Below, one piece after another: positions 17,821 through 64,000 of a stretch of DNA of 64,000 bases. The stretch is from NCBI GenBank assembly GCA_032622095.1, contig CP136068.1, forward strand, positions 135,911,989 to 135,975,988. The letters run 5' to 3'. This stretch comes from Siphonodentalium dalli (lineage: Eukaryota > Mollusca > Scaphopoda > Gadilida > Siphonodentaliidae). The translations under genes were made by a program, and so were the position numbers. Below the pieces are notes generated by a model. It had not been told where the DNA came from. It ran no database searches and worked only from the letters and a program-made list of their open reading frames with translations. The stretch's first letter is position 1. Each line of letters starts with the position of its first letter.

Positions 17821-17826
17821 TTTATT
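17821..17826 (-). promoter_or_regulatory. Candidate polyadenylation signal of STK16-like gene
   Basis: TTTATT on the plus strand is AATAAA on the minus strand, about 560 nt past the stop codon of the kinase. It is the candidate I noted downstream of the coding end; a 3' untranslated region ending here would contain the family A MITE at 18038-18250. Confidence 0.35.
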
Positions 17827-18037
17827 ACGATATTTTTAGCTTTGTGGTGAGGTTTACTGAAATTTCAGTCACTGTACTGCACTGTATAGGAAATTGCGAC
17901 AAACTTCTGATTAGTTTCATCGCTTTACCATGGAATGTTTTGATTGGCTGACACTGACGTAATGCTTCTTGGAAACAATGGGATTCTCTGCTATTTGTTT
18001 CAGACTCTAGAATGCTTAGCTTGTTCAATAGTCTGTA

Positions 18038-18250
18038 CAGTAATGCCCTAAATAATTGACTCATTAACCACAGCAGAATTATGGGTAACTTTTCAGGATT
18101 TAGTTGGAAATATGGCTTGTTGCCATTCATTGGAAAGCTCTCACTGAGAGCTTTCCGATGAATGACAACAAGCCATATTTCCGACTAAATCCTGAAACGT
18201 TACCCATAATTCTGCTGTGGTTAAGGAGTCGATTATTTAGGGCATTACTG
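18038..18250. mobile_element. Palindromic MITE, family A (in probable 3' UTR of the kinase)
   Basis: Copy 2 counterpart of 6285-6497, with inverted CAGTAATGCCCTAA ends flanked by TA. It lies 134 nt past the stop codon of the minus-strand kinase gene, so it would be transcribed as a long hairpin if the 3' UTR extends this far. Confidence 0.85.
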
Positions 18251-18383
18251 TATTTCAATCAGACTGTGTGAGAGAAGACATGCACATCTCCTATTTAAGT
18301 TGAATTATACACCAATTCAACTCAAATTTCCAGGTAACGACCATCACCTTTTCTGAATAGATTTTCCATTCATCATCGTAGGT

Positions 18384-18510
18384 TCACACTCTGTTTTCTG
18401 CGAGGACAAGCAGAGTATCAAGTTTATGAAGAATATCATCAATGAAAGGTCTCTCTAGTACATTCACTGTCATCATCAAACGTACCATCTCCTCCAAAGA
18501 AGTGCTGTAC
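18384..18510 (-). CDS. STK16: STK16-like kinase, coding exon 7 (terminal)
   Basis: 127 nt including TGA (complement of 18384-18386), with acceptor TTTGGTTTCAG. It completes the phase-2 codon left by exon 6 and encodes the end of the kinase C-lobe (EEMVRLMMTV, then a conserved RPF). An identical exon exists at 6631-6757. Intron 6 is 5193 bp and contains the copy 2 foldback transposon. Confidence 0.92.
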
Positions 18511-33500: not shown

Positions 33501-36500
33501 AGATGGGTACCAATTGCCAGATAGGTGCCACTTTTTGTAGCCAATCAGGATTATTTTGGAGCCATTTCATTTTTAGCTCAACTTTACTTTGTAAAGTTTG
33601 AGCTATTGCCATGGCTTTGTCATCCGTGTGTACGTGTGTACGTAAGGCGTCAACAATGCAGGCTACAGGTCGTACCTTTGGTCAGATCATTATGAAATTT
33701 GTCATAGCTGTTGACATCAACATTTAGACCAGAATGATTAATTTTGGGGTCATTCGGAAAAAAAACATGGCCGCCAGTGGCCATAATGGATTTCAAAATT
33801 CAATCCATTAGCACGGGCTACAGGCCGTACTGTTTGTCTGATCATCATGAAATTTGTCATGGATGTTAATATTGACATGTAGATGGGAACGAGTAATTTT
33901 GGGGTCATTCGGCCCAAAAACATGGCCGCCAGCAGCCATCTTGGATTTTACTCTTTGTATGACTAAATTCTTTAGCACGGGCTACAGGTCGTACTTTTAG
34001 TCTGATCATCATAAAATTTGTCAAGAATGTTAATAATGACATATAGATAGATGGGAACGAGTCATTTTGGGGTCATTCGGACAAAAAACATGGCCACCAG
34101 CAGCCATCTTGGATTTTACTCTTTGTATGACTAAATCCTTTAGCACGGGCTGCAGGTCGTACCTTTAGTCTGATCATCATAAAATTTGTCATGAATATTA
34201 ACAATGACATGTAGATGGGAACGAGTAATTTTGGGGTCATTCGGCCAAAAAACATGGTCGCCAGCAGCCATCTTGTATTTTACTCTTTGTATGACTAAAT
34301 CCTTTAGCACGGGCTGCAGGTCCTACTTTTAGTCTGATCATCATAAAATTTGTCATGGTTGTTGAAATTGGAATTTGGAGTGGCCATCTTTGTTTTCAAA
34401 ATTCAATCCCTTAGCACGGGCCGCAGGTCGCATTGTTCGTCTGATCATCATGAAATTTGTCATGGCTTTTGAAATTGGAATGTAGATGGGAACGAGTCAT
34501 TTTGGGGTCATTCGGACAAAAAACATGGCCGCCGGTGGCCATCTTTGTTTTCAAAATTCAATCCATTAGCACAGGCCACAGGTCGCATTGTTCGTCTGAT
34601 CATCATGAAATTTGTCATGGATGTTAATATTGACATGTAGATGGGAACGAGTAATTTTGGGGTCATTCGGCCCAAAAACATGGCCGCCAGCAGCCATCTT
34701 GGATTTTACTCTTTGTATGACTAAATCCTTTAGCACGGGCTACAGGTCGTACCTTTAGTCTGATCATCATAAAATTTGTCATGGATGTTAACAATGACAT
34801 GTAGATTGGAACGAGTCATTTTGGGGTCATTCGGCCAAAAAACATGGCCGCCAGCAGCCGTCTTGGATTTTACTCTTTGTATGACTAAATCCTTTAGCAC
34901 GGGGCTACAGGTCGTACCTTTAGTCTGATCATCATAAAATTTGTCATGGCTTTTGAAATTGGAATGTAGATGGGAACGAGTCATTTTGGGGTCATTCGGA
35001 CTGGCCATCTTTGATTTCAAAATTCAATCCATTAGCACGGGCCACAGGTCGTACTGTTTATCTGATCATCATGAAATTAGTCATGGATGTTAATATTGAC
35101 AAGTAGATGGGAACGAGTCATTTTGGTGTCATTCGGCCCAAAACATGGCCGCCAGCAGCCATCTCGAATTTTACTCTTTGTATGACTAAATCCTTTAGCA
35201 CGGGCTACAGGTCGTACCTTTAGTCTGATCATCATAAAATTTGTCAAGGATGTTAACAATGACATGTAGATGGCAACGAGTCATTTTGGGGCTCATTCGG
35301 CCAAAAAACATGGCCGCCAGCAGCCATCTTGGATTTTACTCTTTGTATGACTAAATCCTTTAGCACGGGCTACAGGTCGTACCTTTGGTCTGATCATCAT
35401 GAAATTTGTCATCGATGTTAACAATAACATGTATATGGGAATGAGTCAATTTGGGGTAATTCGGTCAAAGAAATGGCCGCCAGCAGCCATCTTGGATTTT
35501 ACTCTGTGTGTGACTAAATTCTTTACTGCTCATTTTTACACTCCTTTTTAATCTCTCTATTCATTGCTCATCACAAAAAAATTACCTTCTTTACAAAGTT
35601 GAGCTACAGTGTCATTGACACTTTCATTATTATAGCAATTTGCTAAATTGGCAATGGGCAGCGCGAACCATGTACACAACACACCAAAATATGGTGACAA
35701 TGATCCCTTCAGTGTTATGAGTAGTGGTGCTAAACATAATTATCATCCTATCATTGTTGTAATATTGAATAAAAGGTCGTTGAACAAAATGTCCCCCGAC
35801 GAAGGTGGCAGGTAGGAGTTGATTACACTAATATGATACGAATTGTATATTCATTAAATATGTTGCACATCTTCAATGTGTCTGTAACAATGTCCTGAAA
35901 TTTTAGGTACAAAGGACACAAATTGTAGGAAAAGTTGATTCACAGTGATGGCATCCAAGTGCATATTCACTCAATTTTTTTTAACCCTTTACCCAACAAA
36001 CCGGCCAAAACCGGCCAAATAAAGCTTCAACAGCCTAAAATATCTTCGGTCTGTCTCAATAGAACCATACAAATATGGATATCAGTGGAACCGGCTCCTT
36101 GACCACATTGTGATAGTTATGCCCTGTGCCAATGCATTCTCTTATATATGCGAGTCGACCATAGGTCGCCTCGCATATATAAGAGAATGCATTGGCCTAA
36201 AAAAAATCTTTTTTTTACCATTTTTTCTTACATTCATTAACAATTTTATAATTTTTAATGTGTTAAGCCAATGCATTCTCTTATATATGCGAGGCGACCT
36301 ATGGTCGACTCGCATATATAAGAGAATGCATTGGCACAGGGCCCTTCTGTTGGGTAAAGGGTTAAGACGAGAAAGAGTCAATAACTCTAAAATATAAAAC
36401 ATTTTCAGTCAACACAATACATGTTACACATCTTCAATGTGTCAGTAACAATGTCCTGATGTTTTCGATAAATAGGATATGAACTGTAGGAGGAGTTGAC

Positions 36501-41366: not shown

Positions 41367-42759
41367 TAGACACTACGCGGCAAAAATGTCCAGTCCAAAC
41401 TGCCCATTTTAGCGGCTGATGGCCCTAGACACTACGCCGCCAAAATGTCCAGTCCTAACTGCCCATTCTGGCGGCTGATGGTCCCCATTGACCTGCTGAG
41501 TGTTATCTGAACAAACAAACATTACTCCTAAATAACAACAAATATCAACAAAATAAGCCTTGATATTTTCTTATAGATATATAATAAACATGACTGGTAT
41601 AAATTTACCTTTAGAAAGCATAGCATAATCCACAAAATCACAATGTTTATAAATTGTTTCCTAGAATGACACACAAAAATGGTGAATCCCCACAATATTT
41701 CCAGGAAAGACACCACATGTTTTGGGGAAAACCGGGGTCCACTTTTGCATTTCAAGGAAAATTCTTGGGAAATTTCCACTTCTGACCAATGACATGGCCT
41801 GATCCTGTCCATGTGACTTCTGACCTGGTCAGCTGCTTGATGACATCACATTTATCAGCTGCCATGCCACATGCTCATCATGGCAGTCAATTTCAGGAGT
41901 TTGAAATAATGTTTTTATTTTGGATTATGCTATCCTTACAAAAGGTAAATTTATACCAGTCATGGTCATTATACATCCATAAGAAAATATCAAGGCTTAT
42001 TTTGTTGATATTTGTTGTTATTTAGGAGTAATTTTTGTTTGTTCAGATAACACTCAGCGGGTCAATGGAGACCATCAGCCGCCAGAATGGGCAGTTAGGA
42101 CTGGACATTTTGGCGGCGTAGTGTCTAGATGGCCCCCATTGACCAGCTGAGTGTTATCCGAACAAACACAAATTACTACTAAATAAAACAAAATATCAAC
42201 AAAATAAGCCTTGATATTTTCTTATAGATATATAATAAACATGACTGGTATAAATTTACCTTTGGTAAGCATAGCATAATCCAAAATAAAAAACATTATT
42301 TCCAATTCCAAAAATGGAGTGCCATCTTGAACATGTGGTATAACAGGTGATGTCATCAGGCAGTGACCAGGTCAAAAGTCACATGGAAAGGATCAGACCA
42401 TGTCATTGGTCAAAAGTGGAAATTCCCCCAAAATATTCCCTGCCACACAAGATGTCGACCCCGGTTTTCCCAAAAACATGTGATGTCTTTCCTGGAACTT
42501 TTTTGGGGATTCACCATTTCTGTGTGTCATTCTAGGATACAATGTGTAAACATTGAGATTTCTTGGATTATGCTATGCTTACCAAAGGTAAATTTATACC
42601 AGTCATGTTTATTATATATCTATAAGAAAATATCAAGGCTTATTTTGTTTTATTTAGTAGTAATTTGTGTTTGTTTAGATAACACTCAGCAGGTCAATGG
42701 GGGCCATCAGCCGCTAAAATGGGCAGTTTGGACTGGACATTTTCGCGGCGTAGTGTCTA
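41367..42759. mobile_element. hAT-like palindromic MITE (outer, disrupted by a self-insertion)
   Basis: Inverted ends TAGACACTACGC and GCGTAGTGTCTA are flanked by an 8-bp direct duplication CGTGGTTC (41359-41366 and 42760-42767), as expected of hAT elements. Arm features include GGACATTTT, CAGCCGC, a GAGTGTTATC block and TTATACCAGTCATG. No transposase. At 41425/42128 it is split by a second copy of the same family. Confidence 0.87.
41426..42127. mobile_element. hAT-like palindromic MITE (inner, nested copy)
   Basis: 702 bp with ends TAGACACTACGCCGCC and its complement, flanked by 8-bp GATGGCCC at 41418-41425 and 42128-42135. Removing it and one duplicate restores CGGCTGATGGCCCCCATTGA in the outer element, the same order as within the inner copy (there GGTCCCC), so the insertion into a sibling element is clear. 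Confidence 0.87.
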
Positions 42760-47290: not shown

Positions 47291-47703
47291 AAATAAAGTA
47301 AATCTGTGATATATGAGCTTCGAATGAGTTTGTTATATAAATTTCTTTGGTTTTATTGTAACAGAACGATGTGCGCCCCTGTCTGATCACGCCCCTGTAA
47401 ACTATTGCATCAGTTCCAACTATTACGATGCATGAATAACAGGCGTGGGATTGTTAGTCGGACAGCCGTACTTAGCACGATGACGAGATCACGCGATGCT
47501 GATTCTAGCTAGTTCTCAGGAAGGTTCCCAGTCGAACCAGTGCAGAGGTCTAAAAGTTATTAGTTGTTTTGGTACACTGCACTGGTCATGATATACGAAA
47601 GCTATACTAAAGCTAACTTTAGTGACGAGCCGTTGACAACTAGTTGTCAAGCCTGGCCAGTAACATCGTCACATGATTTTGGAAAGTAGGTTACCACTTT
47701 TAC

Positions 47704-47730
47704 ATATAAGCACTGAGGTTTTACCCATCA
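47704..47730 (+). promoter_or_regulatory. LTR promoter: TATA box and initiator
   Basis: ATATAA at 47704-47709 lies 26 bp before a TCAGTG initiator-like motif (A at 47730). Spacing and position in the LTR fit a pol II start, defining the U3/R border near 47730. Confidence 0.55.
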
Positions 47731-47849
47731 GTGTTCAGTTGACTGAGTCCTCCTATGAGTACCGCCCTGGGAAAGACTTACTGATCCAGAAGAGCCTGAG
47801 AATGCTAGCATCAGCTGACCTATCTTGAGAAGCGAAATTATGCACTAGA

Positions 47850-47855
47850 AATAAA
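47850..47855 (+). promoter_or_regulatory. LTR polyadenylation signal
   Basis: AATAAA about 120 bp after the presumed start site, so R would be present at both ends of the genomic RNA. The same motif is at 60093-60098 in the next LTR. Confidence 0.55.
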
Positions 47856-48010
47856 CAGATATCTACGGTTCCATGAGTTGTCGTCATACCAAAAATAATA
47901 CACAACGTGAAGTCCGGTCGGAACGTCGTATCTCCAACGTACGGGGTTCTGCCACATAGAGATTAACTGGTTGCAGTGAGCACGGATCAACCACGACGAC
48001 AATTTCAAGG

Positions 48011-48020
48011 ATGAAGATAG
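48011..48020 (+). CDS. env: Probable first coding exon of env (ATG plus splice donor)
   Basis: An ATG at 48011 is followed after ten coding bases by a near-consensus donor GTGAGT (48021). The exon leaves one base of an open codon, exactly the phase required by the acceptor at 55803/55804. A splice of 7783 nt would remove gag and pol and provide the start codon and start of a signal peptide for env, as in errantiviruses, where env is made from a spliced RNA. Inferred from signals and phase only. Confidence 0.65.
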
Positions 48021-48120
48021 GTGAGTACACCTAAGACCCTAGAATCTGACGTTTTCTAGCCCACCTTTTCTAAAAAAACCATGGCTCATAAAAACGAATT
48101 TCTGACACCCTGGGTTCTAA

Positions 48121-48489
48121 AAATCAAAATCTAACATCCTGGCTTCCCAAATTCAAGACGAATTAAAACCAGATTTATTAGCTAAAATTCATGCAGCATT
48201 AAAAACCGTTCCGTCCTGGCCTGACGAAAATTATGACGATTTTCTGCCGGACTGTTTTGAATTGGAAAAGCTAACGTATGATGAATATTGCGCCATTTTA
48301 AAACCACAAATATATCAATTAGAAAATACACGGTACGGGACCGTCTCCGAAATTAAAATAATTCGAAAATGTATACTATTTAGAGACTGGGTCCACGTCA
48401 TAGAATTCTCCGTGTGGATTAAAAATAACAACATTTGTCACACGTTTGAAAGTGGTCGATGTATAAAGTATCCGTTTAAAACGAGTTAA
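48121..48489 (+). CDS. Short open frame in leader (pre-gag ORF)
   Basis: Open for 122 codons after the stop at 48118-48120, ending TAA at 48487, 14 nt before gag. It contains acidic and aromatic-rich segments such as WPDENYDDF and FRDWVHVIEFSVW, a composition unlike random sequence, but it has no ATG of its own near the start. The donor at 48021 joined to an AG at 48157 would be in phase, although that acceptor has a weak pyrimidine tract. No family recognised. It could also be non-coding leader. It is repeated without change at 60364-60732. Confidence 0.35.
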   Translation, partial: KSKSNILASQIQDELKPDLLAKIHAALKTVPSWPDENYDDFLPDCFELEKLTYDEYCAILKPQIYQLENTRYGTVSEIKIIRKCILFRDWVHVIEFSVWIKNNNICHTFESGRCIKYPFKTS

Positions 48490-48503
48490 AGATATTTTAA
48501 ATA

Positions 48504-49661
48504 ATGGCTCAAATTGTTGATGATATACAAGGTGCGCATTTGAACGTACCCTTACCCGCGGACGAAGCAAATATGGACGCACCTGTTCAACAACAACAAC
48601 CGCAAAATCCTCAACCACAACCCGGGCAACAAGGCGACTTAAATGCCGCCTTACATTTGTTGAGACAAAACGAGCAAATCGGGCTCGTCTTGGCAGGAAT
48701 CCAGCAGCAATTTGCTGGATTCAATTTGAATCTGGGACAACAAACCAATGCGATTCGTACGCAAACCGCCGCGCAAAGCGCGTTGACTTTATCTACAATG
48801 GTAGAAAAGTACGAGGGACAACCTCGGAAATTAAGGGAATTTTTAAAACAAATAGACCGGTATTGTAATATACTCGGTACACCAGAAGAAGAAAGATGGT
48901 TAGTCGCACTTCAGCGTACAGGCGGCCCTGTAGCTGAATTTCTCACGCGATATCAACACGAAAATCAAGGGGTCACGTGGAACCAAATAAAACGCGAACT
49001 AACGATTAGATTCGCGGAAATAACAGACAAACATCAGGCTCTTGCAAAAGTAAGAAGCTTCAAACAAAAAGCAGGGGAAAATATACATATATATGTAGAG
49101 GCAGTTCGCCAATTAGCAGTGGATGCTTTCGAGTATGAAGAATTAGCCATCCCTGCAATACAACGTCAGTTGGTACAGTATTTCACTGACGGGTTAAATG
49201 ACACAAACCTCAAGATGAAAATCTTGAGAGAAGATCCACAAACATTGGATCAAGCAGCTTTCGTAGCTGTGGAGGAATTTAATATCCTTAAACGATTTTC
49301 AATGCGTTTCAATCGCACACCGACGAATGAAACCCCATCGGGACAAGAACCGATGGATGTAAATAGGGTCAAACCAAAAATAGTGCAGTGTAATTACTGT
49401 CACAAATTGGGCCACAAATATGAAGCTTGTAGACTCCGCCCAAGACAAAATACACATGTTCACACAATAAATAACTCTCCTCAACCGCCAACCAAATTTT
49501 GTCGAAGCTGTTGGAAGCTAACATATCATGATACTCGTGAATGTTGGTACAAGGACCACTTGTACGATTATGGGACAACGAACCCAAACTTTAAACGCCG
49601 AATGCGTAACGAGTTGGACGAGCAGCAAAACAGAAAACCGAATCCCTCTTTAAACGAGTAG
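48504..49661 (+). CDS. gag: Gag polyprotein
   Basis: 385 residues forming the particle core. The ATG has A at -3 and G at +4. A Gln/Pro-rich N-terminal segment (residues about 20-50) precedes a capsid domain of the Retrotrans_gag type (about 95-270, with EKYEGQPRKLREFL and FKQKAGENIHIYVEAVRQL). A CCHC zinc knuckle follows at C296-x2-C299-x4-H304-x4-C309, and a second, variant one at C333-x2-C336-x5-H342-x4-C347. It ends at TAG 49659. The pol frame overlaps its last 52 nt in the -1 frame. Confidence 0.93.
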   Translation: MAQIVDDIQGAHLNVPLPADEANMDAPVQQQQPQNPQPQPGQQGDLNAALHLLRQNEQIGLVLAGIQQQFAGFNLNLGQQTNAIRTQTAAQSALTLSTMVEKYEGQPRKLREFLKQIDRYCNILGTPEEERWLVALQRTGGPVAEFLTRYQHENQGVTWNQIKRELTIRFAEITDKHQALAKVRSFKQKAGENIHIYVEAVRQLAVDAFEYEELAIPAIQRQLVQYFTDGLNDTNLKMKILREDPQTLDQAAFVAVEEFNILKRFSMRFNRTPTNETPSGQEPMDVNRVKPKIVQCNYCHKLGHKYEACRLRPRQNTHVHTINNSPQPPTKFCRSCWKLTYHDTRECWYKDHLYDYGTTNPNFKRRMRNELDEQQNRKPNPSLNE

Positions 49662-49679
49662 AACCTGTTCGTGACAAGG
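49649..49679 (+). promoter_or_regulatory. Probable -1 ribosomal frameshift signal between gag and pol
   Basis: The heptamer TTTAAAC (49649-49655) is in the correct X XXY YYZ register for gag and ends three bases before the stop codon. Eight bases later a small stem can form (CCTGT 49664-49668 with ACAAGG 49674-49679), followed by a GC-rich CGCGCGCGCG run. TTTAAAC is among the best-known slippery sites. Pol lies in the -1 frame, open across this point. Confidence 0.75.
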
Positions 49680-52600
49680 CGCGCGCGCGGGTTAACCATA
49701 TTAAACATAAATCAAAGCCTTACAAAACTGTATCCAATAAAGCACTCTATCCAAATTTAACACGTAAAAATTTACCCTCAACGAATGTAATTCCATTAAA
49801 TTCGCACAGATTTACTAGAACGTATGACAACCGTTACGATTCACATTGTAAAAACATATCTGGTCATGGGAGTACAAAGCATATACACTATGCCAGACCC
49901 ACAGTAAAAATGATTGACAACGCGCGACCCAACGCCGACCTTCATGTCAAACCGGTGCACCATCACTTGCATTCCGAATTGTCATATGCTGATCGAGTAA
50001 AATCGAACAAGAAATCATTGGAGAACACAAATAAGTTAAATAAAGTGAAGAATACTTATGTCATGGGTCACAAGACGCCAAATACAATTGACACTAAACG
50101 TGCGGATCCACGAACGCGAAAATTCGACAACCGTGGGTCTAACTCCCATAAACATGGTAAATCACTGAATAATCCGCATAAAAAATATGCGAATCGAGAG
50201 AGACACTCCATAAATCCGCGATTCGCCTCGCCATGGGATAATAAAACTGAAAAAGCACAGCAAAACTCGAAAAATAGGAGTTTTCAAAAATCACATATTG
50301 AGTGCCCATTTAAGGGACAAAACACTCAGAAACAACCAAATCAAGCCTACAGTAACTTATTACATTACGGGAAATCGAAAAATTCACAAAAACAAAAAAT
50401 AAAAAAAATTCTGTATGATGGCGACCAAAATGGCCAACAAGATGGCACAAAATTGAAAAACACAAAAAATGGAATAAATCAATTTCCAAACAAAAATCTT
50501 AGTCCCAAACAACGAATTCCGTATTCTCAAGGTCAAACGAACTCAAACAAGACTGAACATCGTAATAAAACTCAAAAACTTAAAAATCAGCCCAATTTTC
50601 AAATTTCTTATCCAAACAACAGGTATAGTGTACTGGAACAAGACTATTGTCCTCCAGACTATACAAATATACATGTGCCTGATAGTCCAATGCCTTCAAG
50701 GCCACAACACCGTCGTAAAACAAAGGATTTTATGAAAAATCAAAATTCCAACTCCAAGTTCAAACTTGTTGAGACTAATGATAAATACAATGTACTTAAA
50801 ATGAAATTACCCAAACCGAATGTACGGTACACAAAACACAATAAACCTAGTAAAACTACTAAAATAGTTGAAAAGTCTCATAAAACAAATGATGTTGCAA
50901 ATCAACTTAAAGATAGAAAAGAATGGTTAAACCAAGTTAAAAAGTTAACTAAAACAAGCAAGCAAACAGATACTCAAATGAAACATACCATACATGGTCG
51001 TGGAGTCTCTCATAACCCCAAATCAAATAAAAATGGAAAAACTTCTGAAAAATTCAAAAATGAAACATCCAAAGAAGTGAATGTTACAGGTACGCCTGTG
51101 CCATCCTCAATATTGCTTCAAATAGGCAAACAACGTGTTCGTGCCCTTTGTGATACTGGAGCACAGTGCTCCATAATTAGCAACCGTTTATATAAACAAA
51201 TCACAAATAGACCCAAACTTAACAGAAGGAAGGATAATTTGACTTCAGTCACAGGAAGTGAACTCAAATGTATCGGTCAAATTGAATTACCTTTCAAAGT
51301 TAGTGGGTTAAAGATGAAACATGATTTTTATATCGTGGAAAATATGACCCGCAATATAATCTTAGGTACTGACTGGATGGTTCAAAACTGTGTGCGAATA
51401 TTCTTCGACTTACAATGTTTGAAGATTAATCATCGCATCGTTCCAATGGTACCTGACTTAGAGATTGCAAGCCTTGTTAGACTTAAGAAGGAAGCACTTC
51501 TCAAGCCCCAGAGTTGTCTCTTAACTTGTGCTCACATCGTTGGCGGATGTGGCTTATTCGACACTAACCTGTTACAAGTTAGTTCTCTGGATCATGGGTT
51601 CTTGTCTGAACAACCCGGCTTGAACTTAAGTGATGCAGTCATTAATGTTAATGACCTTACTTCTTTAGGCAGCATCCCTGTATACCTTGTCAATGATACT
51701 GACAAGTTCTATAAACTTAGAAAGGGATGTGTCTTAGGCAAGGTTGAACCTCTTGAGACAGCTCAGATTTCTGACGTCTCCCAGTCACCCACTCAGTCAT
51801 TTTCCCGTGACACCAAGCCATCAAAAATTAATTATGCTGAGGTTGATGTGCCCTCAGATAAGAAACAAATAATCACAGATCTTCTTAAAAGTAATGAAGG
51901 TCTCTTTGCTGCAACTGATGCAGACCTAACCTTTACTGACACAGTAAAGATGAAAATAGATACACAAGGTAATGCACCCATCAAGTGCCAACCATACCGT
52001 GTTCCATTGGCTAAAAAGCAGATCATGGACCAGGCAATTGATGATATGCTTGAATCAGATATCATTACCCCTGCTAGATCACCATGGTCCTTTCCTTGCT
52101 TACTTGTGGGCAAGAAAGATGGTTCATCAAGATTTTGTGTTGACTTTCGTAAGCTCAATGCTATTACTAAACCAATTACTTGGCCACTCCCGGTCATTGA
52201 TGACATATTGAATTCTCTAAATGGCTCTAAATACCTGACAGCGCTTGATCTTAAGTCAGGCTACTGGCAAATCTTATTAGATGAAGATGCCCGTGAAAAG
52301 TCTACATTTACTTGCCATAGAGGGACCTATTCTTTCAAGGTAATGAGTTTCGGTCTTTCAAATGCCCCAAGTTTGTTTCAAGAGCTAATGTCCGTCGTCT
52401 TAGATGGCCTACAAGATCGCTCATTAGCCTACTTAGACGATATTTTGATATTCTCGCCGACGGAGGCTCAACATCGTAAAGACATTCAAACTGTCTTCGA
52501 TCGCCTTCGACAACATAAATTGAAACTCAAATTGAAAAAGTGTAAGTTTTTCCAAACTGAGACCAAGTACTTAGGTTTTGTTATTAACTCAGATGGTGTC

Positions 52601-55126
52601 AAACCCGACCTTGATAAAGTCAAGGCCATTCGAGATGTTCCACCACCTACCAATATTAAAGGAGTTAGATCATTTATGGGAATGACATCATACTATCGTC
52701 GTTTCATTCCTGGTTTTAGCGCCATCGCTACACCTCTGATTAATCTCACTAAAAAGTATTCAAAGTTTAAATGGACTGATGAATGCCAAAGAAGCTTTGA
52801 TACCATGAAATCAAAACTAACTGGAGTATCTTATCTTGCATACCCAGACGTCAACAAACCATATTGGTTATATACTGATGCCTCTGACAATTGTATCGGG
52901 GCATGTCTTACTCAACCTTATGAAGACCCAAGTCTTGATCCCACCATCGCTGGTGAATTGGAAAGACCAATCTATTTCCTCTCACACAAACTTAGTGATA
53001 CTCAACGCCGCTGGGCCACAATTGAAAAGGAATGCTTCGCCATTCACTATGCCCTTCGAAAGTTTGATCATTACTTATCAAATGCTCAGTTTACCATTCG
53101 TACTGACCACAAACCTCTTGAACATCTTCTTAAAGGCCCTCTTAGTGCCAATAAGAAACTTCAGAATTGGGCACTGGATATTGCTGGCTATAATTGCCAG
53201 ATTGAATACATACCAGGTCCTTCGAATCTCTGTGCAGACTGGCTCTCTCGTCCACCTGCACCTTCTCCGTTAAATCCTCATACTCATACTGATTCCTCAG
53301 ATGGTGAAGACATTCCTGAGATCAGTGATAAGGCTTATCAAGTGACAGCCATAAATTCTAACAAATTTGAACCCAAAGAATTTGCTAAGTGCATAATTCC
53401 TCCTGATGACTTACCTCGTCAATCTCAACTCACACATGTTGATTTCAACATGACTCTAGAACAAGATAAAGACGCTGAGATAGTAGAGCTTAAGAAACAA
53501 TATAATTGCAACAATCCACCCCCCTCCATTTGGGAAAAATACATACTTATCAATGACATCTTGCATTATATTAGTCATGCCAAGGATGACCCTGTTCTTC
53601 GCATGTGCATTCCATCTCATTTACAAGCTCACATTATGCAGCAGTACCACGATGATAATGGGCATCTAGGTACCGATAAAATGTTTTCCTCAATCAAATC
53701 CAAGTATTATTGGAAGAATCTTTACAAAGATATATATGCATATTGTGAAAAATGCATTCCCTGCCAAAGTCGAAAACTTCAGAAAAAGAAATCACCTCTT
53801 CAAGAAACAGACATAGCACCTTACCCCTTCGCTAAAATTGGTCTCGATTTAAGTGGACCCTACCCTAAGACGTTAAGTGGGAACGTCTACATCGTCACTT
53901 TCATCGACCTCTATAGTGGTTGGCCAGAAAGTTTTGCAGTACCAGACAAATCTGCCTCCACTATTGCCAATTTGTTACTAAGTGAGATTTTTCCTCGTTT
54001 CTCAGCACCGCTGGAACTGGTAACTGATAATGGCACCGAGAATATTAATCAAGTCATGCATGATGTCTTAGAAGAACTTCGTATTCATCACGTCACTTCT
54101 TCTTATTATCATCCTCAGAGTAACGCCAAAGTTGAACGCGTTCACCGGACTATGCATGACATTCTTTCCAAGTTGCTTAAGAATCAACTTGAGACATGGG
54201 ATCTGTATCTTCCCCAAACACTGGCTAGTATACGATTCAGTGTGAATGAATCTACTAAATACTCGCCATTCTACCTGCTATATCAACGTGACCCCATTTT
54301 ACCAATTGACAATTTGCTCCGCCCTCATCACAAGTATGTGGGTGAAGACTTTCACAAGGTCGCACTTCAAGAAATGCATCGTTCATTTCGTTTGATGCAT
54401 CGTCATCTACAGTCTGCTAAAAAGCGACAGAAAACCTACCAAGATAAGAAGGCGACCGATAACTCTTTTGAAGTGGGCGACCCTGTCTATTATAAAGACA
54501 ATCGCACCAAAAATAAGTTAGCCCTTAAGTGGCAACCATATTTTCGCGTCATTGAAAAGCGGTCCCCTGTTTCATACCGCATCCGTAATCAACTTACAGG
54601 TCGTGTGACTAAGAGTCATGCTGACCTCCTCCGCAGAGCTGCCATAGATTGGACTCTGCCTGTCAAAACTGACAAAGAAGCTGCTGTCAGAGCGCAGCGC
54701 TATGTTGTACCCCCCTCCTCATCTGATTCTGACTCCGACTCCGAGGATAACATACCTCTTCAGCGTCTTCGTACAATGAAACGCCAGGTCAGATCAGATT
54801 CGGAGGACGAAGACGATATACCCCTTAACGAGCTTCGCACCAAGCTGCGTGCTCGTAAACTAGCTCAAGAGGCTCAGAATGATTATAATGCCTCTACTGA
54901 AGAGTACAGTGATGATATGCACAATGCATATAACGCATCTACCGACGATTATGATGTACCTCCCAATCTGGGATTACAAGACATCACCATGGCTGCAGAC
55001 ATTGAATCTGTTCATGCCAAATTATCAACAGCAGAGGACGACTCAGCTGAATCTCAGTTTGAACCTGGTCGCCTGCTTACCATTGAACCCCTGACAGTTA
55101 TCCCCCTTCTAGAGACTGATCTCTAA
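49655..55126 (+). CDS. pol: Pol polyprotein (protease, RT, RNase H, integrase)
   Basis: 1823 residues if entered by frameshift; the first ATG at 49910 is probably not the start because the frame is open back to 49610. Numbering from that ATG: about 400 residues rich in Asn, Lys and Gln; protease with D415 in CDTGAQCS; RT with YLDD at 841-844; RNase H with LYTDAS (D990); integrase HHCC zinc-binding region (about 1240-1287), then D1313, D1373 and E1409, giving exact D59D35E spacing. A GPY/F-like module (WQPYFRVI ... SYRI) follows, and the C-terminus is acidic and Ser/Asp-rich. No frame breaks. Confidence 0.95.
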   Translation, partial: RVEPVRDKARARVNHIKHKSKPYKTVSNKALYPNLTRKNLPSTNVIPLNSHRFTRTYDNRYDSHCKNISGHGSTKHIHYARPTVKMIDNARPNADLHVKPVHHHLHSELSYADRVKSNKKSLENTNKLNKVKNTYVMGHKTPNTIDTKRADPRTRKFDNRGSNSHKHGKSLNNPHKKYANRERHSINPRFASPWDNKTEKAQQNSKNRSFQKSHIECPFKGQNTQKQPNQAYSNLLHYGKSKNSQKQKIKKILYDGDQNGQQDGTKLKNTKNGINQFPNKNLSPKQRIPYSQGQTNSNKTEHRNKTQKLKNQPNFQISYPNNRYSVLEQDYCPPDYTNIHVPDSPMPSRPQHRRKTKDFMKNQNSNSKFKLVETNDKYNVLKMKLPKPNVRYTKHNKPSKTTKIVEKSHKTNDVANQLKDRKEWLNQVKKLTKTSKQTDTQMKHTIHGRGVSHNPKSNKNGKTSEKFKNETSKEVNVTGTPVPSSILLQIGKQRVRALCDTGAQCSIISNRLYKQITNRPKLNRRKDNLTSVTGSELKCIGQIELPFKVSGLKMKHDFYIVENMTRNIILGTDWMVQNCVRIFFDLQCLKINHRIVPMVPDLEIASLVRLKKEALLKPQSCLLTCAHIVGGCGLFDTNLLQVSSLDHGFLSEQPGLNLSDAVINVNDLTSLGSIPVYLVNDTDKFYKLRKGCVLGKVEPLETAQISDVSQSPTQSFSRDTKPSKINYAEVDVPSDKKQIITDLLKSNEGLFAATDADLTFTDTVKMKIDTQGNAPIKCQPYRVPLAKKQIMDQAIDDMLESDIITPARSPWSFPCLLVGKKDGSSRFCVDFRKLNAITKPITWPLPVIDDILNSLNGSKYLTALDLKSGYWQILLDEDAREKSTFTCHRGTYSFKVMSFGLSNAPSLFQELMSVVLDGLQDRSLAYLDDILIFSPTEAQHRKDIQTVFDRLRQHKLKLKLKKCKFFQTETKYLGFVINSDGVKPDLDKVKAIRDVPPPTNIKGVRSFMGMTSYYRRFIPGFSAIATPLINLTKKYSKFKWTDECQRSFDTMKSKLTGVSYLAYPDVNKPYWLYTDASDNCIGACLTQPYEDPSLDPTIAGELERPIYFLSHKLSDTQRRWATIEKECFAIHYALRKFDHYLSNAQFTIRTDHKPLEHLLKGPLSANKKLQNWALDIAGYNCQIEYIPGPSNLCADWLSRPPAPSPLNPHTHTDSSDGEDIPEISDKAYQVTAINSNKFEPKEFAKCIIPPDDLPRQSQLTHVDFNMTLEQDKDAEIVELKKQYNCNNPPPSIWEKYILINDILHYISHAKDDPVLRMCIPSHLQAHIMQQYHDDNGHLGTDKMFSSIKSKYYWKNLYKDIYAYCEKCIPCQSRKLQKKKSPLQETDIAPYPFAKIGLDLSGPYPKTLSGNVYIVTFIDLYSGWPESFAVPDKSASTIANLLLSEIFPRFSAPLELVTDNGTENINQVMHDVLEELRIHHVTSSYYHPQSNAKVERVHRTMHDILSKLLKNQLETWDLYLPQTLASIRFSVNESTKYSPFYLLYQRDPILPIDNLLRPHHKYVGEDFHKVALQEMHRSFRLMHRHLQSAKKRQKTYQDKKATDNSFEVGDPVYYKDNRTKNKLALKWQPYFRVIEKRSPVSYRIRNQLTGRVTKSHADLLRRAAIDWTLPVKTDKEAAVRAQRYVVPPSSSDSDSDSEDNIPLQRLRTMKRQVRSDSEDEDDIPLNELRTKLRARKLAQEAQNDYNASTEEYSDDMHNAYNASTDDYDVPPNLGLQDITMAADIESVHAKLSTAEDDSAESQFEPGRLLTIEPLTVIPLLETDL

Positions 55127-55803: not shown

Positions 55804-57902
55804 CAATACTAGTACTCTGTGTGACCTTAATCTCACTAGAATTGGGTCAAACGAATAGCATTATTGTGACGCGACATAATGTGATTTTCCAAAAACTTAA
55901 AGATATATATATGACCAATGCAGATTGGACAATAGGTTTCGTAGTAAACTTAGAACCATTTCAAACCTACTTGAAATCCCTGTCAAGACAAATAAAAATA
56001 GCTCGAAAAGAGTTGGACCGAACAAAGTTAAAAACAATACAAACAAACGGACATGAGTCGTTTAACTTGACAGGTACAACTAAACAATTCGACGATCTCT
56101 TCGCGAGTTTCAGTGAAAACTTAGAGATACTGAACACCGAATACTTAGAAGTTGTTTCGCAATTTGTCGAATACAAAACGCTTCACGATGATTCGCCGCA
56201 TAAGATTAAAAGGTCGCTGCTCCCCTTCATAGGAGAAGGATTATCCTGGCTGTTTGGAACAGTCAGTGAGAGCGACCTCAATAATATTAATAATAATATT
56301 AATAAATTGGCTAATAATCAACGAAAAATTGAGCACACTCTCAAAGAAAGTTTTAGCCTAATGGACGTCTCCCGGAATTACATCCGTGAAAATAGAATGA
56401 AAACTAATCAGTTGGTTGAAACAGTTAAATATATTCAGCATGTACTCACTGAGGCATTCAACAAGCAATCACACAAATTAACGACATTGGAATACTACGC
56501 TAATTTGCATAATCATATTGACCTAAGAATTACAGAGATAAATCAAATGATTACTGCTGCTAGATTTCATGTAGAACACATGCATACGCAAATAAGTATC
56601 TTAACTACCAAACGAATTGCTCCAAGTGTGGTTCGTATTAATACCTTACGACGAGTGTTATCTGACTTGGACAAACATCTTCCAGATCATCTTAAATTAC
56701 CATTTGATCCCAACACTGAATTGTGGAAGTATTATCAAAACTTTAAGTGTTCTACTCTGTTGACAAACAGTCGACTAATTGTACTAGTGAAAATTCCTCT
56801 GATCAACATAAGGAACAAATTCGAACTCTTTAAGATTCATTCGTTCCCATACACACCTAATAACAAATCTTTATCTTCGGATTTAAGACAAATGATTGCT
56901 GAATATCGGTTTGACCATAAACACTTAATAATAAATGCTGGTCGTACTCAATTCATAACATTACCCGATAACTCGCTCTGCTTAATGAATCCATTGCCAT
57001 TCTGTCCTTTTGATGGTGTTATTCGAACGCTTTACAACGATAAACCATGCCCTATCGCATTACTCATGAATGACACGAGGTCAATAAAAGACCAGTGCAT
57101 TATAGAAGTGCAACCGAGCGTTAAACTACCATATGTCAGAAATGTAAACACTGGACTCTTTGTCATTAGCTTAGCTAAACCAATAACTTTCTCGGTAATG
57201 TGTAAAGATTATGTAAGTTCTCAAGAAGTGACATTATTTCCGCCTATTGGATTATTAACTTTACAACCTACGTGTATCGCTTCTGCCCCGAATGTGAAAA
57301 TTGAGAGTCACTTCTCAGGTGACAACTCTCAGCTTATAAATGCGTTTGATAACGAGATTCTTCCTAAATTTAATCTTTCCAAGTTCTACCTTTGGAAACC
57401 TGTCTTGGACAGAATTGATCGTTTTAGGAATTTTACATTACCAATCGCATTAAAAGGTGTTACTAAAATACCTTTACATCAGTTAATTGATTCATTGGAC
57501 AAACTGGAAAGCATAACACCCCTTAATTCGGAAATTCCAAAATATGTTTATGTAATTATAATTGTGGCAATGTTAGCTTCGGTGCTTGCCCTCTGTCGTT
57601 ACCGGAATAAAGTTATGTCCCTCTTATGCAAACATAAACGCCGCAATAGGCGCCATAACGTCAGATTTGGGTCACTAGGTGTACGTGAAGACGCAGGTAC
57701 CTTGAACGAAGAACCAACCACGTCTTCATCACTTACATCAGAAACTAAGCGATCAGCCGAATCGCCATCCACTCCTGTAACTATCAAACGTACCAAAATT
57801 CACCTAACTGAAAATGATATTGCCTATTTACAGCAGCACCAACTCATGGAACTGCCAGAACTGATTACCACTGACGAAGCTTCTTCAACATCTACCTTAT
57901 AA
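55804..57902 (+). CDS. env: Env-like fusion glycoprotein, main exon (baculovirus F/errantivirus type)
   Basis: The frame is open from 55791 after a TGA, with no ATG near its start; the acceptor at 55803 suggests the start comes from the exon at 48011. Numbering from 55821, the protein has a hydrophobic N-terminus, an N-linked site at 82, a furin-like KIKR at 128-131 followed by a hydrophobic LLPFIGEGLSWLFG segment typical of the F-type fusion peptide, a heptad-like Asn/Leu region (150-180), a single membrane anchor at about 575-594 and a basic cytoplasmic tail of about 100 residues. Predicted to mediate membrane fusion at the cell surface. The frame is unbroken. Confidence 0.88.
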
Positions 57903-57906
57903 GAAA

Positions 57907-58545
57907 ATGTCCAAAATCAACGTTGTCATCTTCGGATCCAGCCATATTCAACGACTGGCTCAACATTTACTATCAACGGAGAAGAAGATGACGCTATATC
58001 CCAACAACTTCCGCAGAGCATTGGATTTAGTCGACCCCAATATTACAGTAACTATGTATGGTATTAGTGGATTGCGACTCCACGACCTACAAACGTCAAC
58101 CATCAGCCAACTACAACAACTACGTCCGTCCATAATAATAATAATGTGTGGAGGCAATGACCTCTCCTCTAGGTCAGTAGAAGATACATACTACGACCTA
58201 ACCCAACTAATCCACAAACTACAAGACCCAACTCCTACCAAAATAATTGTCTGCGAGCTACTTCAGAGAAGAAAAGTCCGACTTCCAGGTCCAGAAAAGA
58301 AGACCAGTACTCGCAGTAGCGATGTCAATCAATATAATGACCGTGTGAGTCAATTAAACCAATTACTTCGGAGCGGGTTACATAAAAATTACCCAGCAGC
58401 ATATTACTGGCCGCTTCGAAGACTATCCACCTTCGTTGAGGAATCAGCCTTGAATCATGATAAAGTTCACCTCAACGAAGAAGGAAATATCCGACTATCC
58501 CGGAATATAAAACATGCGATTGTGTTCGCATTAACACATTCATAA
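57907..58545 (+). CDS. SGNH/GDSL-hydrolase-like protein, third gene of the element
   Basis: 212 residues beginning four bases after the env stop (TAAgaaaATG, A at -3). The SGNH blocks are in order: VVIFGSSH with the presumed nucleophile S12, GISG with G55, IIIIMCGGND with N84, and DKVHLN with the D185-x2-H188 pair near the C-terminus. The alternation of hydrophobic strands and helices fits the flavodoxin-like SGNH fold. There is no signal peptide or membrane segment, so it is probably cytosolic or particle-associated. The family contains esterases and acyl- or acetyl-hydrolases; the substrate is unknown. It is in a different frame from env and could be translated by reinitiation or from another RNA. 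I know SGNH domains from CR1-type LINEs and Ngaro elements, not from this position in gypsy elements. Confidence 0.82.
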   Translation: MSKINVVIFGSSHIQRLAQHLLSTEKKMTLYPNNFRRALDLVDPNITVTMYGISGLRLHDLQTSTISQLQQLRPSIIIIMCGGNDLSSRSVEDTYYDLTQLIHKLQDPTPTKIIVCELLQRRKVRLPGPEKKTSTRSSDVNQYNDRVSQLNQLLRSGLHKNYPAAYYWPLRRLSTFVEESALNHDKVHLNEEGNIRLSRNIKHAIVFALTHS

Positions 58546-59599
58546 CCATTAGAACCGCTGGATTGGATCAAGAATTTAACCACTTGCGCTTGGGGATTCT
58601 TGAGTACGTAGTCACGTACGTCTCCGCCAAGACCTGTGCTTGGACTTGTATCCGGTTCAGCTGAATCATGTTCATTACAGAAGAGGATTAGATGAAGAGT
58701 ATATACAATAAATATATGACATTCCCTGAATATGATGTCCAGAAAAGATGAAGAGTATATACAATAAATATATGACATTCCCTGAATATGATGTCAAGAA
58801 AGCAACAAGTGTATATAAAATAAATATATGACATTCCACGAAGACGATGTAAAAAAGAAACCTTGTGATTTAAAACACGAACTTATTGTGATGTGATATA
58901 ATTCCAAATACGGTATTGTATACCAGGATATTATGTGCATGCTCAAATTAATTCGTCGCATGCCATAGGATTATATAAAGACCACGGTCTAAGGCTAAAA
59001 ATTAATCAGATATAATAAGTAGATTAGCTCATTATAGCTGGATACGTGAGATAGGTAGTATCATAGTTGTTCCATAAATTATAACAGACTTTAAAGTCTT
59101 TAACATATAAACACAACTTATGGTTTACTTTTGAATCAGGCTATCATGCCAATTAGATGTTCTGCACAGCCAGATTTTTAATGGAGTAAAAATCTAATTT
59201 TATCCATACATCTAAACCCTGCTAACATGCAAAGGTCATATCCTCTTTTCAACAAGCAGGTACACACATGTGTTCTCATTTAACTATAGTTAACTCTGCT
59301 TAGTAACTGGATGGAGATGTACTACTCACGTATCCTGCCCATATTTTCCTTTTTCAGCAATTGAAAAAACATATATAGATGTATTAACAATAGAAGTCTT
59401 GCCTTAGACCTTGGCCGTCATTGTGCTCAGTCTGTCCTTCAATGGCAACCAGAAAGGTTGCCTTTTCACTAAAGGATAACAAATCCTAATAATAATAATA
59501 ACTTAAACTTAAACTAACAGTGTGCCATCTTTCTGTTAACGATTCCTGCTAGGATGATTTCGCATCAGCCTATGCGAAATCCTCTTGGTATGGGAGGTA
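58546..59599 (+). other. Non-coding tail with tandem repeats, hairpins and polypurine stretch
   Basis: It holds the shared motif at 58601-58640, a 56-bp tandem repeat (58692-58852), a hairpin GGCAACC/GGTTGCC at about 59444-59462, and a perfect 10-bp stem GATTTCGCAT/ATGCGAAATC (59556-59565 with 59572-59581). The short purine-rich GGGAGG just before the LTR (59592-59597) is the candidate polypurine tract for plus-strand priming. Confidence 0.65.
58692..58852. repeat. 56-bp tandem repeat, almost three copies
   Basis: GATGAAGAGTATATACAATA starts at 58692 and 58748, and a diverged third copy (CAAGTGTATATAAAATAAAT) follows at about 58804. Each copy carries ATAAATATATGACATTCC. Confidence 0.9.
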
Positions 59600-60199
59600 T
59601 GTAACAGAACGATGTGCGCCCCTGTCTGATCACGCCCCTGTAAACTATTGCATCAGTTCCAACTATTACGATGCATGAATAACAGGCGTGGGATTGTTAG
59701 TCGGACAGCCGTACTTAGCACGATGACGAGATCACGCGATGCTGATTCTAGCTAGTTCTCAGGAAGGTTCCCAGTCGAACCAGTGCAGAGGTCTAAAAGT
59801 TATTAGTTGTTTTGGTACACTGCACTGGTCATGATATACGAAAGCTATACTAAAGCTAACTTTAGTGACGAGCCGTTGACAACTAGTTGTCAAGCCTGGC
59901 CAGTAACATCGTCACATGATTTTGGAAAGTAGGTTACCACTTTTACATATAAGCACTGAGGTTTTACCCATCAGTGTTCAGTTGACTGAGTCCTCCTATG
60001 AGTACCGCCCTGGGAAAGACTTACTGATCCAGAAGAGCCTGAGAATGCTAGCATCAGCTGACCTATCTTGAGAAGCGAAATTATGCACTAGAAATAAACA
60101 GATATCTACGGTTCCATGAGTTGTCGTCATACCAAAAATAATACACAACGTGAAGTCCGGTCGGAACGTCGTATCTCCAACGTACGGGGTTCTGCCACA
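59600..60199 (+). repeat. Shared (second) LTR
   Basis: I saw no difference from 47357-47956 in the parts compared (offset 12243). It serves as 3' LTR of the complete copy and as 5' LTR of the following partial copy. TATA at 59947-59952 and AATAAA at 60093-60098. Confidence 0.9.
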
Positions 60200-60363
60200 T
60201 AGAGATTAACTGGTTGCAGTGAGCACGGATCAACCACGACGACAATTTCAAGGATGAAGATAGGTGAGTACACCTAAGACCCTAGAATCTGACGTTTTCT
60301 AGCCCACCTTTTCTAAAAAAACCATGGCTCATAAAAACGAATTTCTGACACCCTGGGTTCTAA

Positions 60364-60732
60364 AAATCAAAATCTAACATCCTGGCTTCCCAAATTCAAG
60401 ACGAATTAAAACCAGATTTATTAGCTAAAATTCATGCAGCATTAAAAACCGTTCCGTCCTGGCCTGACGAAAATTATGACGATTTTCTGCCGGACTGTTT
60501 TGAATTGGAAAAGCTAACGTATGATGAATATTGCGCCATTTTAAAACCACAAATATATCAATTAGAAAATACACGGTACGGGACCGTCTCCGAAATTAAA
60601 ATAATTCGAAAATGTATACTATTTAGAGACTGGGTCCACGTCATAGAATTCTCCGTGTGGATTAAAAATAACAACATTTGTCACACGTTTGAAAGTGGTC
60701 GATGTATAAAGTATCCGTTTAAAACGAGTTAA
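60364..60732 (+). CDS. Pre-gag open frame, second copy
   Basis: Same as 48121-48489; unchanged and equally uncertain. Confidence 0.33.
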   Translation, partial: KSKSNILASQIQDELKPDLLAKIHAALKTVPSWPDENYDDFLPDCFELEKLTYDEYCAILKPQIYQLENTRYGTVSEIKIIRKCILFRDWVHVIEFSVWIKNNNICHTFESGRCIKYPFKTS

Positions 60733-60746
60733 AGATATTTTAAATA

Positions 60747-61904
60747 ATGGCTCAAATTGTTGATGATATACAAGGTGCGCATTTGAACGTACCCTTACCC
60801 GCGGACGAAGCAAATATGGACGCACCTGTTCAACAACAACAACCGCAAAATCCTCAACCACAACCCGGGCAACAAGGCGACTTAAATGCCGCCTTACATT
60901 TGTTGAGACAAAACGAGCAAATCGGGCTCGTCTTGGCAGGAATCCAGCAGCAATTTGCTGGATTCAATTTGAATCTGGGACAACAAACCAATGCGATTCG
61001 TACGCAAACCGCCGCGCAAAGCGCGTTGACTTTATCTACAATGGTAGAAAAGTACGAGGGACAACCTCGGAAATTAAGGGAATTTTTAAAACAAATAGAC
61101 CGGTATTGTAATATACTCGGTACACCAGAAGAAGAAAGATGGTTAGTCGCACTTCAGCGTACAGGCGGCCCTGTAGCTGAATTTCTCACGCGATATCAAC
61201 ACGAAAATCAAGGGGTCACGTGGAACCAAATAAAACGCGAACTAACGATTAGATTCGCGGAAATAACAGACAAACATCAGGCTCTTGCAAAAGTAAGAAG
61301 CTTCAAACAAAAAGCAGGGGAAAATATACATATATATGTAGAGGCAGTTCGCCAATTAGCAGTGGATGCTTTCGAGTATGAAGAATTAGCCATCCCTGCA
61401 ATACAACGTCAGTTGGTACAGTATTTCACTGACGGGTTAAATGACACAAACCTCAAGATGAAAATCTTGAGAGAAGATCCACAAACATTGGATCAAGCAG
61501 CTTTCGTAGCTGTGGAGGAATTTAATATCCTTAAACGATTTTCAATGCGTTTCAATCGCACACCGACGAATGAAACCCCATCGGGACAAGAACCGATGGA
61601 TGTAAATAGGGTCAAACCAAAAATAGTGCAGTGTAATTACTGTCACAAATTGGGCCACAAATATGAAGCTTGTAGACTCCGCCCAAGACAAAATACACAT
61701 GTTCACACAATAAATAACTCTCCTCAACCGCCAACCAAATTTTGTCGAAGCTGTTGGAAGCTAACATATCATGATACTCGTGAATGTTGGTACAAGGACC
61801 ACTTGTACGATTATGGGACAACGAACCCAAACTTTAAACGCCGAATGCGTAACGAGTTGGACGAGCAGCAAAACAGAAAACCGAATCCCTCTTTAAACGA
61901 GTAG
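60747..61904 (+). CDS. gag: Gag polyprotein, second copy
   Basis: The 385-residue product is the same as that of 48504-49661, with both zinc knuckles, followed by the same TTTAAAC frameshift site at 61892-61898. Confidence 0.93.
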   Translation: MAQIVDDIQGAHLNVPLPADEANMDAPVQQQQPQNPQPQPGQQGDLNAALHLLRQNEQIGLVLAGIQQQFAGFNLNLGQQTNAIRTQTAAQSALTLSTMVEKYEGQPRKLREFLKQIDRYCNILGTPEEERWLVALQRTGGPVAEFLTRYQHENQGVTWNQIKRELTIRFAEITDKHQALAKVRSFKQKAGENIHIYVEAVRQLAVDAFEYEELAIPAIQRQLVQYFTDGLNDTNLKMKILREDPQTLDQAAFVAVEEFNILKRFSMRFNRTPTNETPSGQEPMDVNRVKPKIVQCNYCHKLGHKYEACRLRPRQNTHVHTINNSPQPPTKFCRSCWKLTYHDTRECWYKDHLYDYGTTNPNFKRRMRNELDEQQNRKPNPSLNE

Positions 61905-64000
61905 AACCTGTTCGTGACAAGGCGCGCGCGCGGGTTAACCATATTAAACATAAATCAAAGCCTTACAAAACTGTATCCAATAAAGCACTCTATCCAAATT
62001 TAACACGTAAAAATTTACCCTCAACGAATGTAATTCCATTAAATTCGCACAGATTTACTAGAACGTATGACAACCGTTACGATTCACATTGTAAAAACAT
62101 ATCTGGTCATGGGAGTACAAAGCATATACACTATGCCAGACCCACAGTAAAAATGATTGACAACGCGCGACCCAACGCCGACCTTCATGTCAAACCGGTG
62201 CACCATCACTTGCATTCCGAATTGTCATATGCTGATCGAGTAAAATCGAACAAGAAATCATTGGAGAACACAAATAAGTTAAATAAAGTGAAGAATACTT
62301 ATGTCATGGGTCACAAGACGCCAAATACAATTGACACTAAACGTGCGGATCCACGAACGCGAAAATTCGACAACCGTGGGTCTAACTCCCATAAACATGG
62401 TAAATCACTGAATAATCCGCATAAAAAATATGCGAATCGAGAGAGACACTCCATAAATCCGCGATTCGCCTCGCCATGGGATAATAAAACTGAAAAAGCA
62501 CAGCAAAACTCGAAAAATAGGAGTTTTCAAAAATCACATATTGAGTGCCCATTTAAGGGACAAAACACTCAGAAACAACCAAATCAAGCCTACAGTAACT
62601 TATTACATTACGGGAAATCGAAAAATTCACAAAAACAAAAAATAAAAAAAATTCTGTATGATGGCGACCAAAATGGCCAACAAGATGGCACAAAATTGAA
62701 AAACACAAAAAATGGAATAAATCAATTTCCAAACAAAAATCTTAGTCCCAAACAACGAATTCCGTATTCTCAAGGTCAAACGAACTCAAACAAGACTGAA
62801 CATCGTAATAAAACTCAAAAACTTAAAAATCAGCCCAATTTTCAAATTTCTTATCCAAACAACAGGTATAGTGTACTGGAACAAGACTATTGTCCTCCAG
62901 ACTATACAAATATACATGTGCCTGATAGTCCAATGCCTTCAAGGCCACAACACCGTCGTAAAACAAAGGATTTTATGAAAAATCAAAATTCCAACTCCAA
63001 GTTCAAACTTGTTGAGACTAATGATAAATACAATGTACTTAAAATGAAATTACCCAAACCGAATGTACGGTACACAAAACACAATAAACCTAGTAAAACT
63101 ACTAAAATAGTTGAAAAGTCTCATAAAACAAATGATGTTGCAAATCAACTTAAAGATAGAAAAGAATGGTTAAACCAAGTTAAAAAGTTAACTAAAACAA
63201 GCAAGCAAACAGATACTCAAATGAAACATACCATACATGGTCGTGGAGTCTCTCATAACCCCAAATCAAATAAAAATGGAAAAACTTCTGAAAAATTCAA
63301 AAATGAAACATCCAAAGAAGTGAATGTTACAGGTACGCCTGTGCCATCCTCAATATTGCTTCAAATAGGCAAACAACGTGTTCGTGCCCTTTGTGATACT
63401 GGAGCACAGTGCTCCATAATTAGCAACCGTTTATATAAACAAATCACAAATAGACCCAAACTTAACAGAAGGAAGGATAATTTGACTTCAGTCACAGGAA
63501 GTGAACTCAAATGTATCGGTCAAATTGAATTACCTTTCAAAGTTAGTGGGTTAAAGATGAAACATGATTTTTATATCGTGGAAAATATGACCCGCAATAT
63601 AATCTTAGGTACTGACTGGATGGTTCAAAACTGTGTGCGAATATTCTTCGACTTACAATGTTTGAAGATTAATCATCGCATCGTTCCAATGGTACCTGAC
63701 TTAGAGATTGCAAGCCTTGTTAGACTTAAGAAGGAAGCACTTCTCAAGCCCCAGAGTTGTCTCTTAACTTGTGCTCACATCGTTGGCGGATGTGGCTTAT
63801 TCGACACTAACCTGTTACAAGTTAGTTCTCTGGATCATGGGTTCTTGTCTGAACAACCCGGCTTGAACTTAAGTGATGCAGTCATTAATGTTAATGACCT
63901 TACTTCTTTAGGCAGCATCCCTGTATACCTTGTCAATGATACTGACAAGTTCTATAAACTTAGAAAGGGATGTGTCTTAGGCAAGGTTGAACCTCTTGAG
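61898..64000 (+). CDS. pol: Pol polyprotein, second copy, 5' part
   Basis: Same frame as 49655-51757. It includes the Asn/Lys-rich region and the protease (CDTGAQCS) and is cut by the window edge before the reverse transcriptase. Confidence 0.92.

Follow-up and report, generated by a model that had tools for sequence, protein, structure and literature searches.

In this article, I discuss a gene for an SGNH/GDSL hydrolase that lies directly behind the envelope gene (env) of a Ty3/gypsy retrovirus-like element in the scaphopod mollusc Siphonodentalium dalli, found in a stretch of 64,000 nucleotides (contig CP136068.1 of assembly GCA_032622095.1, positions 135,911,989 to 135,975,988 of the forward strand) that is called the window below and whose own numbering is used throughout. 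Judged from its sequence, the gene is real and is part of an element that carries an env. The explanation that I favor, with about as much belief as doubt, is that this open reading frame (ORF) is the fourth gene of an errantivirus-like element and would encode a small, basic, apparently non-secreted cytosolic acyl- or acetyl-hydrolase acting at membranes; the SGNH family, the catalytic residues, the position and the absent hydrophobic signal are the parts of this explanation that come from the sequence.

An SGNH gene directly behind env

The ORF (57907-58545, on the + strand like every feature of the element given below) starts with ATG and encodes 212 amino acids with an isoelectric point (pI) of 9.69, a net charge of +8.5 and two cysteines. 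An earlier, sequence-only reading of this DNA had described the four SGNH blocks in their proper order, and a check of the residues confirms them: S12 (in VIFGSSHIQRL), G55, N84 (in CGGNDL), and D185 with H188 (in HDKVHLN). The hidden Markov model search that was suggested at the time places the 212 residues above the curated Pfam cut-offs of two families, Lipase_GDSL_2 (PF13472; 48.2 bits against 32.9, E 2.4e-12) and Lipase_GDSL (PF00657; 36.4 bits against 23.6, E 8.1e-9). Two further families, DUF459 (0.00083) and OSK (0.0026), which I take to be SGNH-like too, match under their own curated cut-offs. Since the Pfam alignment spans residues 31-194, S12 falls outside it, and support for this residue comes from its motif, from its site between strand 4-10 and helix 12-22 of the predicted model and from structural alignments that begin at residues 1-4. 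Structure prediction, in which the lack of an SGNH fold had been named as grounds for refutation, gave an SGNH-like fold at low confidence (predicted local distance difference test, pLDDT, 61), and the top VIA rows for this structure are CE3 acetyl esterases. The same model has 46 matches at E <= 1e-3 in the Foldseek viral library; among the best 50 viral matches, 12 are nameless, while the named proteins are largely from phages and some from giant viruses, and none of these named rows bears a retroelement label.

A chance ORF can be rejected on the Pfam scores, the ordered catalytic residues and a simulation in which an ATG-initiated ORF of at least 212 codons arose in one of 5000 second-order Markov sequences, these being modelled on 57903-59599, a stretch that contains the SGNH ORF itself. 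Of the six frames, that of SGNH also agrees best, though weakly, with the codons used in gag, pol and env (log-ratio -0.025 per codon, with the other five at -0.151 to -0.32), although this fit is no better than base composition and not above background.

The sequence bears out that the ORF begins four bases past the env stop, with TAA at 57900-57902, the spacer GAAA and the SGNH ATG at 57907. The env main exon (55804-57902) matches the Baculovirus F protein family (PF12259, 9.9e-18) and encodes a furin-type KIKR site, a fusion-peptide-like stretch, a transmembrane segment (at about residues 574-592 of the 693-amino-acid ORF by hydropathy) and a long tail. Fourteen of 6794 candidates are env homologues (best E 5e-77; 22-29% identity to the window env in the alignment), and across the 15 aligned env proteins the cleavage and fusion region is invariant at R131 S132 L133 P135 and L144 F145 G146 V148; these 15 members, taken at E <= 0.001, include six with Baculo_F and two with the Gypsy env family. 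Against the PDB, the env sequence has just two rows, at E 0.15 and 0.62. Taken with the best PDB match of pol, the Ty3 Gag-Pol structure 7q5b (4.4e-95), the Pfam families and the adjacency itself support the earlier placement of the SGNH gene directly behind the F-type env of a Ty3/gypsy element.

Element layout and predicted expression

Upstream of env, gag (48504-49661; 385 amino acids) matches Ty3_capsid (PF19259, 6.3e-9) and Retrotrans_gag (3.3e-5), and pol (49910-55126, in a frame open from 49610) encodes an aspartic protease, reverse transcriptase (RT), RNase H and an integrase with the Pfam domains rve and H2C2. The gag and pol frames overlap, and a TTTAAAC heptamer at the end of gag (49649-49655) lies in a phase that suits a -1 frameshift into the pol frame. 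The start of pol (49910-51115) is rich in K and N over about 400 residues ahead of the protease and has no Pfam match at E <= 1. The SGNH gene is followed by a 3' non-coding region (58546-59599), which holds a short tandem repeat of AATAAATATATGACATTCC-type units at 58690-58860, seen by eye, and has a purine-rich end (GGGAGG at 59592-59597) ahead of the next long terminal repeat (LTR) start.

The putative 5' LTR of this copy (47357-47956, about 600 bp) has its left end, TGTAACAGAAC, fixed by a 12243-bp repeat and a proposed right end at GTTCTGCCACA, its length being deduced from an inverted terminal match of 9/11 between TGTAACAGAAC and GTTCTGCCACA that was counted by eye. It contains AATAAA at 47850 and no match to TATA[AT]A, and a TGG, a candidate for the tRNA primer site, stands at 47968, 11 nt past the proposed LTR end. 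The repeat at 47357 begins again at 59600 and stays identical to the end of the window, so that a second copy follows the first head to tail: 59600-64000 is letter-identical to 47357-51757 over 4401 bases, and the window end cuts this copy inside pol, before env and SGNH. No target-site duplication is visible in the window, where copy 2 directly follows at 59600. The claim that the SGNH gene sits inside intact LTRs was therefore too strong, given a second copy that starts at 59600 and an LTR length taken only from the 9/11 match. The identical tandem may be real, through recombination between LTRs, or may be a product of the assembly.

How would these 3' genes be expressed? The env frame is open from 55791 and has no ATG close to its start, and env would be made from a spliced subgenomic mRNA. 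A predicted leader exon (48011-48020) consists of an ATG, two codons and one base, ends at a consensus donor (AG/GTGAGT) that is the only GGTRAG match in 47357-49700, and fits in phase an acceptor-like TTTTCAG that ends at 55803, so that a splice from 48020/48021 to 55803/55804 would give env both its start and a hydrophobic signal. Two observations weigh against this splice: the acceptor-like sites at 55305 and 55430 are richer in pyrimidines than that at 55803, and the ATG at 48011 is preceded by four others at 47755-47873. As for SGNH, its ATG has an A at -3 and its frame is +1 relative to env, which excludes an env-SGNH fusion by an ordinary -1 frameshift and leaves either reinitiation past the env stop on the env mRNA or a further spliced mRNA of its own as the probable source of the protein; acceptor-like sites occur at 57741 and, in a weaker form that ends in AAG, at 57903.

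Elsewhere in the window, a tandem duplication of about 11.7 kb (1-11158 and 11657-22913; 99.7-100% identity) is either a recent duplication or an assembly product, and within each unit a 1.1-kb repeat is present in inverted copies that are about 86% alike. Two mutually alike arrays of tandem repeats of about 164 bp lie at 27745-29472 and 33661-35525, with a unit length that is presumably similar to that of the bivalve 160-bp satellite/Helitron repeats, a likeness that would point to a mollusc host. An imperfect palindrome at 41426-42759 aligns with its reverse complement at about 85%. Neither Rfam at its gathering threshold nor ARAGORN gave any match within the window.

A proposed cytosolic hydrolase and its rivals

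By hydropathy, the SGNH protein has neither a hydrophobic N-terminus nor a transmembrane segment, its best 19-residue mean being 0.85 against 2.33 for the transmembrane segment of env. The sequence-only reading is supported on the missing signal peptide, but it considered an intracellular role as likely as a surface role, and for want of such a segment the former is now the likelier. The protein would bind the anionic cytosolic faces of membranes and hydrolyse lipid acyl or acetyl groups, and might in this way assist particles in their assembly, budding or traffic, a role similar to that proposed for the esterase encoded by the long interspersed nuclear element (LINE) ZfL2-1; all of this, the binding included, is the least certain part of the explanation. 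Viral haemagglutinin-esterases, which are secreted or membrane-anchored glycoproteins, are the model for another and improbable explanation, namely an O-acetylesterase that destroys receptors or sits at the surface and cooperates with the F protein during entry or release. The gene does adjoin that of a fusion protein and its predicted structure does lead to CE3 acetyl esterases; however, a strongly basic protein (by both pI and charge) with two cysteines and no signal-like or transmembrane segment is a poor match to secreted receptor-destroying esterases, and SGNH is read in its own frame, unfused to env. It is the missing segment above all that leads me to disfavor a surface enzyme. About as improbable is a membrane-targeting or ribonucleoprotein-binding protein whose SGNH fold mainly binds lipid or RNA, with catalysis secondary. 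The basic character of the protein, including a basic stretch at 120-137, most of it modelled with low confidence, would suit this, as would the ZfL2-1 esterase, which binds liposomes independently of its active site (PMC3905857). However, that same esterase does not bind oligo-(A) RNA (PMC3905857), and the window protein keeps all of its catalytic residues, which binding alone does not need.

Should the gene instead be a passenger, one recent lineage would have picked it up from its host or a different retroelement, and it would be translated poorly or not at all and be useless to the element, a possibility that I regard as real but unlikely. In its favor, relatives of the protein could not be found: of 98 candidates drawn from 5.77 billion clusters, none reaches E <= 10, NCBIfam has nothing at E <= 1, PHROGs has a single row at 0.054 and the PDB three rows at E 0.052-1.4. 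A tblastn search of phages returned zero matches at 1e-5, and at E <= 10 there is a single chance-level row in phages (E 6) and a single one in plasmids (E 9). Viral contigs hold no relatives of SGNH, the pol piece, the env alignment or gag, and prokaryote genome contigs, for which SGNH was not used as a query, none of the env alignment and the pol piece, both collections being unlikely places for animal elements; three plasmid records did match the pol piece at less than 60% identity (best 32% over 99%), and these are taken for eukaryotic contamination. The single complete copy in the window, the codon fit at background and the awkward expression of the ORF point the same way, and so do the extra ORFs of bdelloid rotifer LTR elements, which within genomes do not depart significantly from neutrality (PMC5408684). 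Against a passenger stand the open frame with every catalytic block intact, the 4-nt spacing behind env and the recurrence of SGNH domains, since LINEs, Penelope-like elements, Ngaro and rotifer LTR elements have each acquired SGNH/GDSL esterases (PMC5408684, PMC9210276, PMC6431247), and such recurrence across types of retroelement suggests that they are of use. That a misjoin in the assembly produced the tandem copy or the link from env to SGNH is very improbable. Copy 2 is letter-identical across its 4401 bp and the window has a further near-identical duplication at 1-22913; however, the identity bears on the join at 59600 and not on the env-SGNH junction, and the 3' end of copy 1, a purine-rich stretch and then the LTR start, is as expected behind the SGNH gene.

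Known systems and what the pairing may mean

Among the systems nearest to the window element are the Vesta LTR elements of bdelloid rotifers, which carry a GDSL esterase/lipase as ORF3 (Rodriguez et al., 2017; PMC5408684). A bona fide env is absent from most members of Vesta and Juno, which have GDSL or DEDDy ORF3s where env is expected; there is a dUTPase in pol, and the GDSL clones are of 1.3 kb; the authors suggested that the GDSL ORF3 aids membrane penetration and left formally open whether ORF3s stand in for env (PMC5408684). Vesta resembles the window element as a retrovirus-like LTR element with a separate GDSL/SGNH ORF 3' of pol that has catalytic residues and neither transmembrane segment nor coiled coil (PMC5408684), but in the window the SGNH ORF is of 0.64 kb and stands beside an F-type env, not instead of one. 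Furthermore, the Vesta dUTPase lies between protease and RT (PMC5408684), whereas none is among the 13 Pfam families (E <= 1) in the window pol. Errantiviruses and insect endogenous retroviruses (the ZAM and Beagle subclades) share with the window element a Ty3-type pol, an F-type env with furin site and transmembrane segment, and env splicing predicted from a short exon 5' of gag; however, their env is described as the third ORF (PMC12992720), while the window element adds an SGNH ORF after it. By word count, GDSL and SGNH have no occurrence in that paper, nor have GDSL and hydrolase in a later insect paper (PMC13172572).

Similarly, ZfL2-1, in which the esterase belongs to ORF1p of a CR1/L2/RTEX non-LTR element, offers a retroelement-encoded SGNH hydrolase with a basic surface, but there the esterase lies within a coiled-coil ORF1p 5' of pol and in the window the SGNH gene lies 3' of both pol and env (PMC3905857). 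The S-G spacing is 22 in ZfL2-1 and 43 in the window protein, and the LINE-type His at N-4 is replaced by Met80, an equivalence set by motif offset and not by superposition (PMC3905857); the SGNH gene was probably taken up independently. Ngaro-like elements also place an SGNH ORF on the 3' side, but they have a tyrosine recombinase (YR), split direct repeats and the ORFs gag-like, RT/RNase H, YR and SGNH, with env not among them (PMC9210276), whereas the window pol carries an rve/H2C2 integrase. The window element lacks the marker features of the CR1/L2 esterases and of Ngaro, and on this comparison of features a straightforward transfer from either source was set aside as improbable. Terminons, too, bear GDSL ORFs (PMC6431247).

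An LTR element with an F-type env plus an SGNH gene was not found among the titles and abstract openings listed by the literature searches, a coverage that leaves the metazoan errantivirus survey of Chary and Hayashi (eLife 108449) outside, nor was the pairing found in passages of PMC12440569 (abstract included), PMC7264820 and PMC5718144. The sequence-only reading had suggested an independent pairing of SGNH and env; since GDSL ORF3s 3' of pol have already been published in bdelloid LTR elements such as Vesta (PMC5408684), it is only the coexistence with env that looks new, and this novelty is provisional. More broadly, and tentatively, some env-carrying errantivirus-like elements may hold a conserved fourth gene for a lipid- or acetyl-esterase read from the env mRNA, in which case a fusion protein would be joined by a membrane-modifying enzyme of the cytosol in one module for release or entry, with an origin separate from that of the esterases in CR1, Ngaro and rotifer elements. 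Since the element has a genuine F-type env as well as its SGNH gene, the enzyme would have a job other than replacing env, and this makes the element a natural system for asking what an SGNH enzyme does for retroelements.
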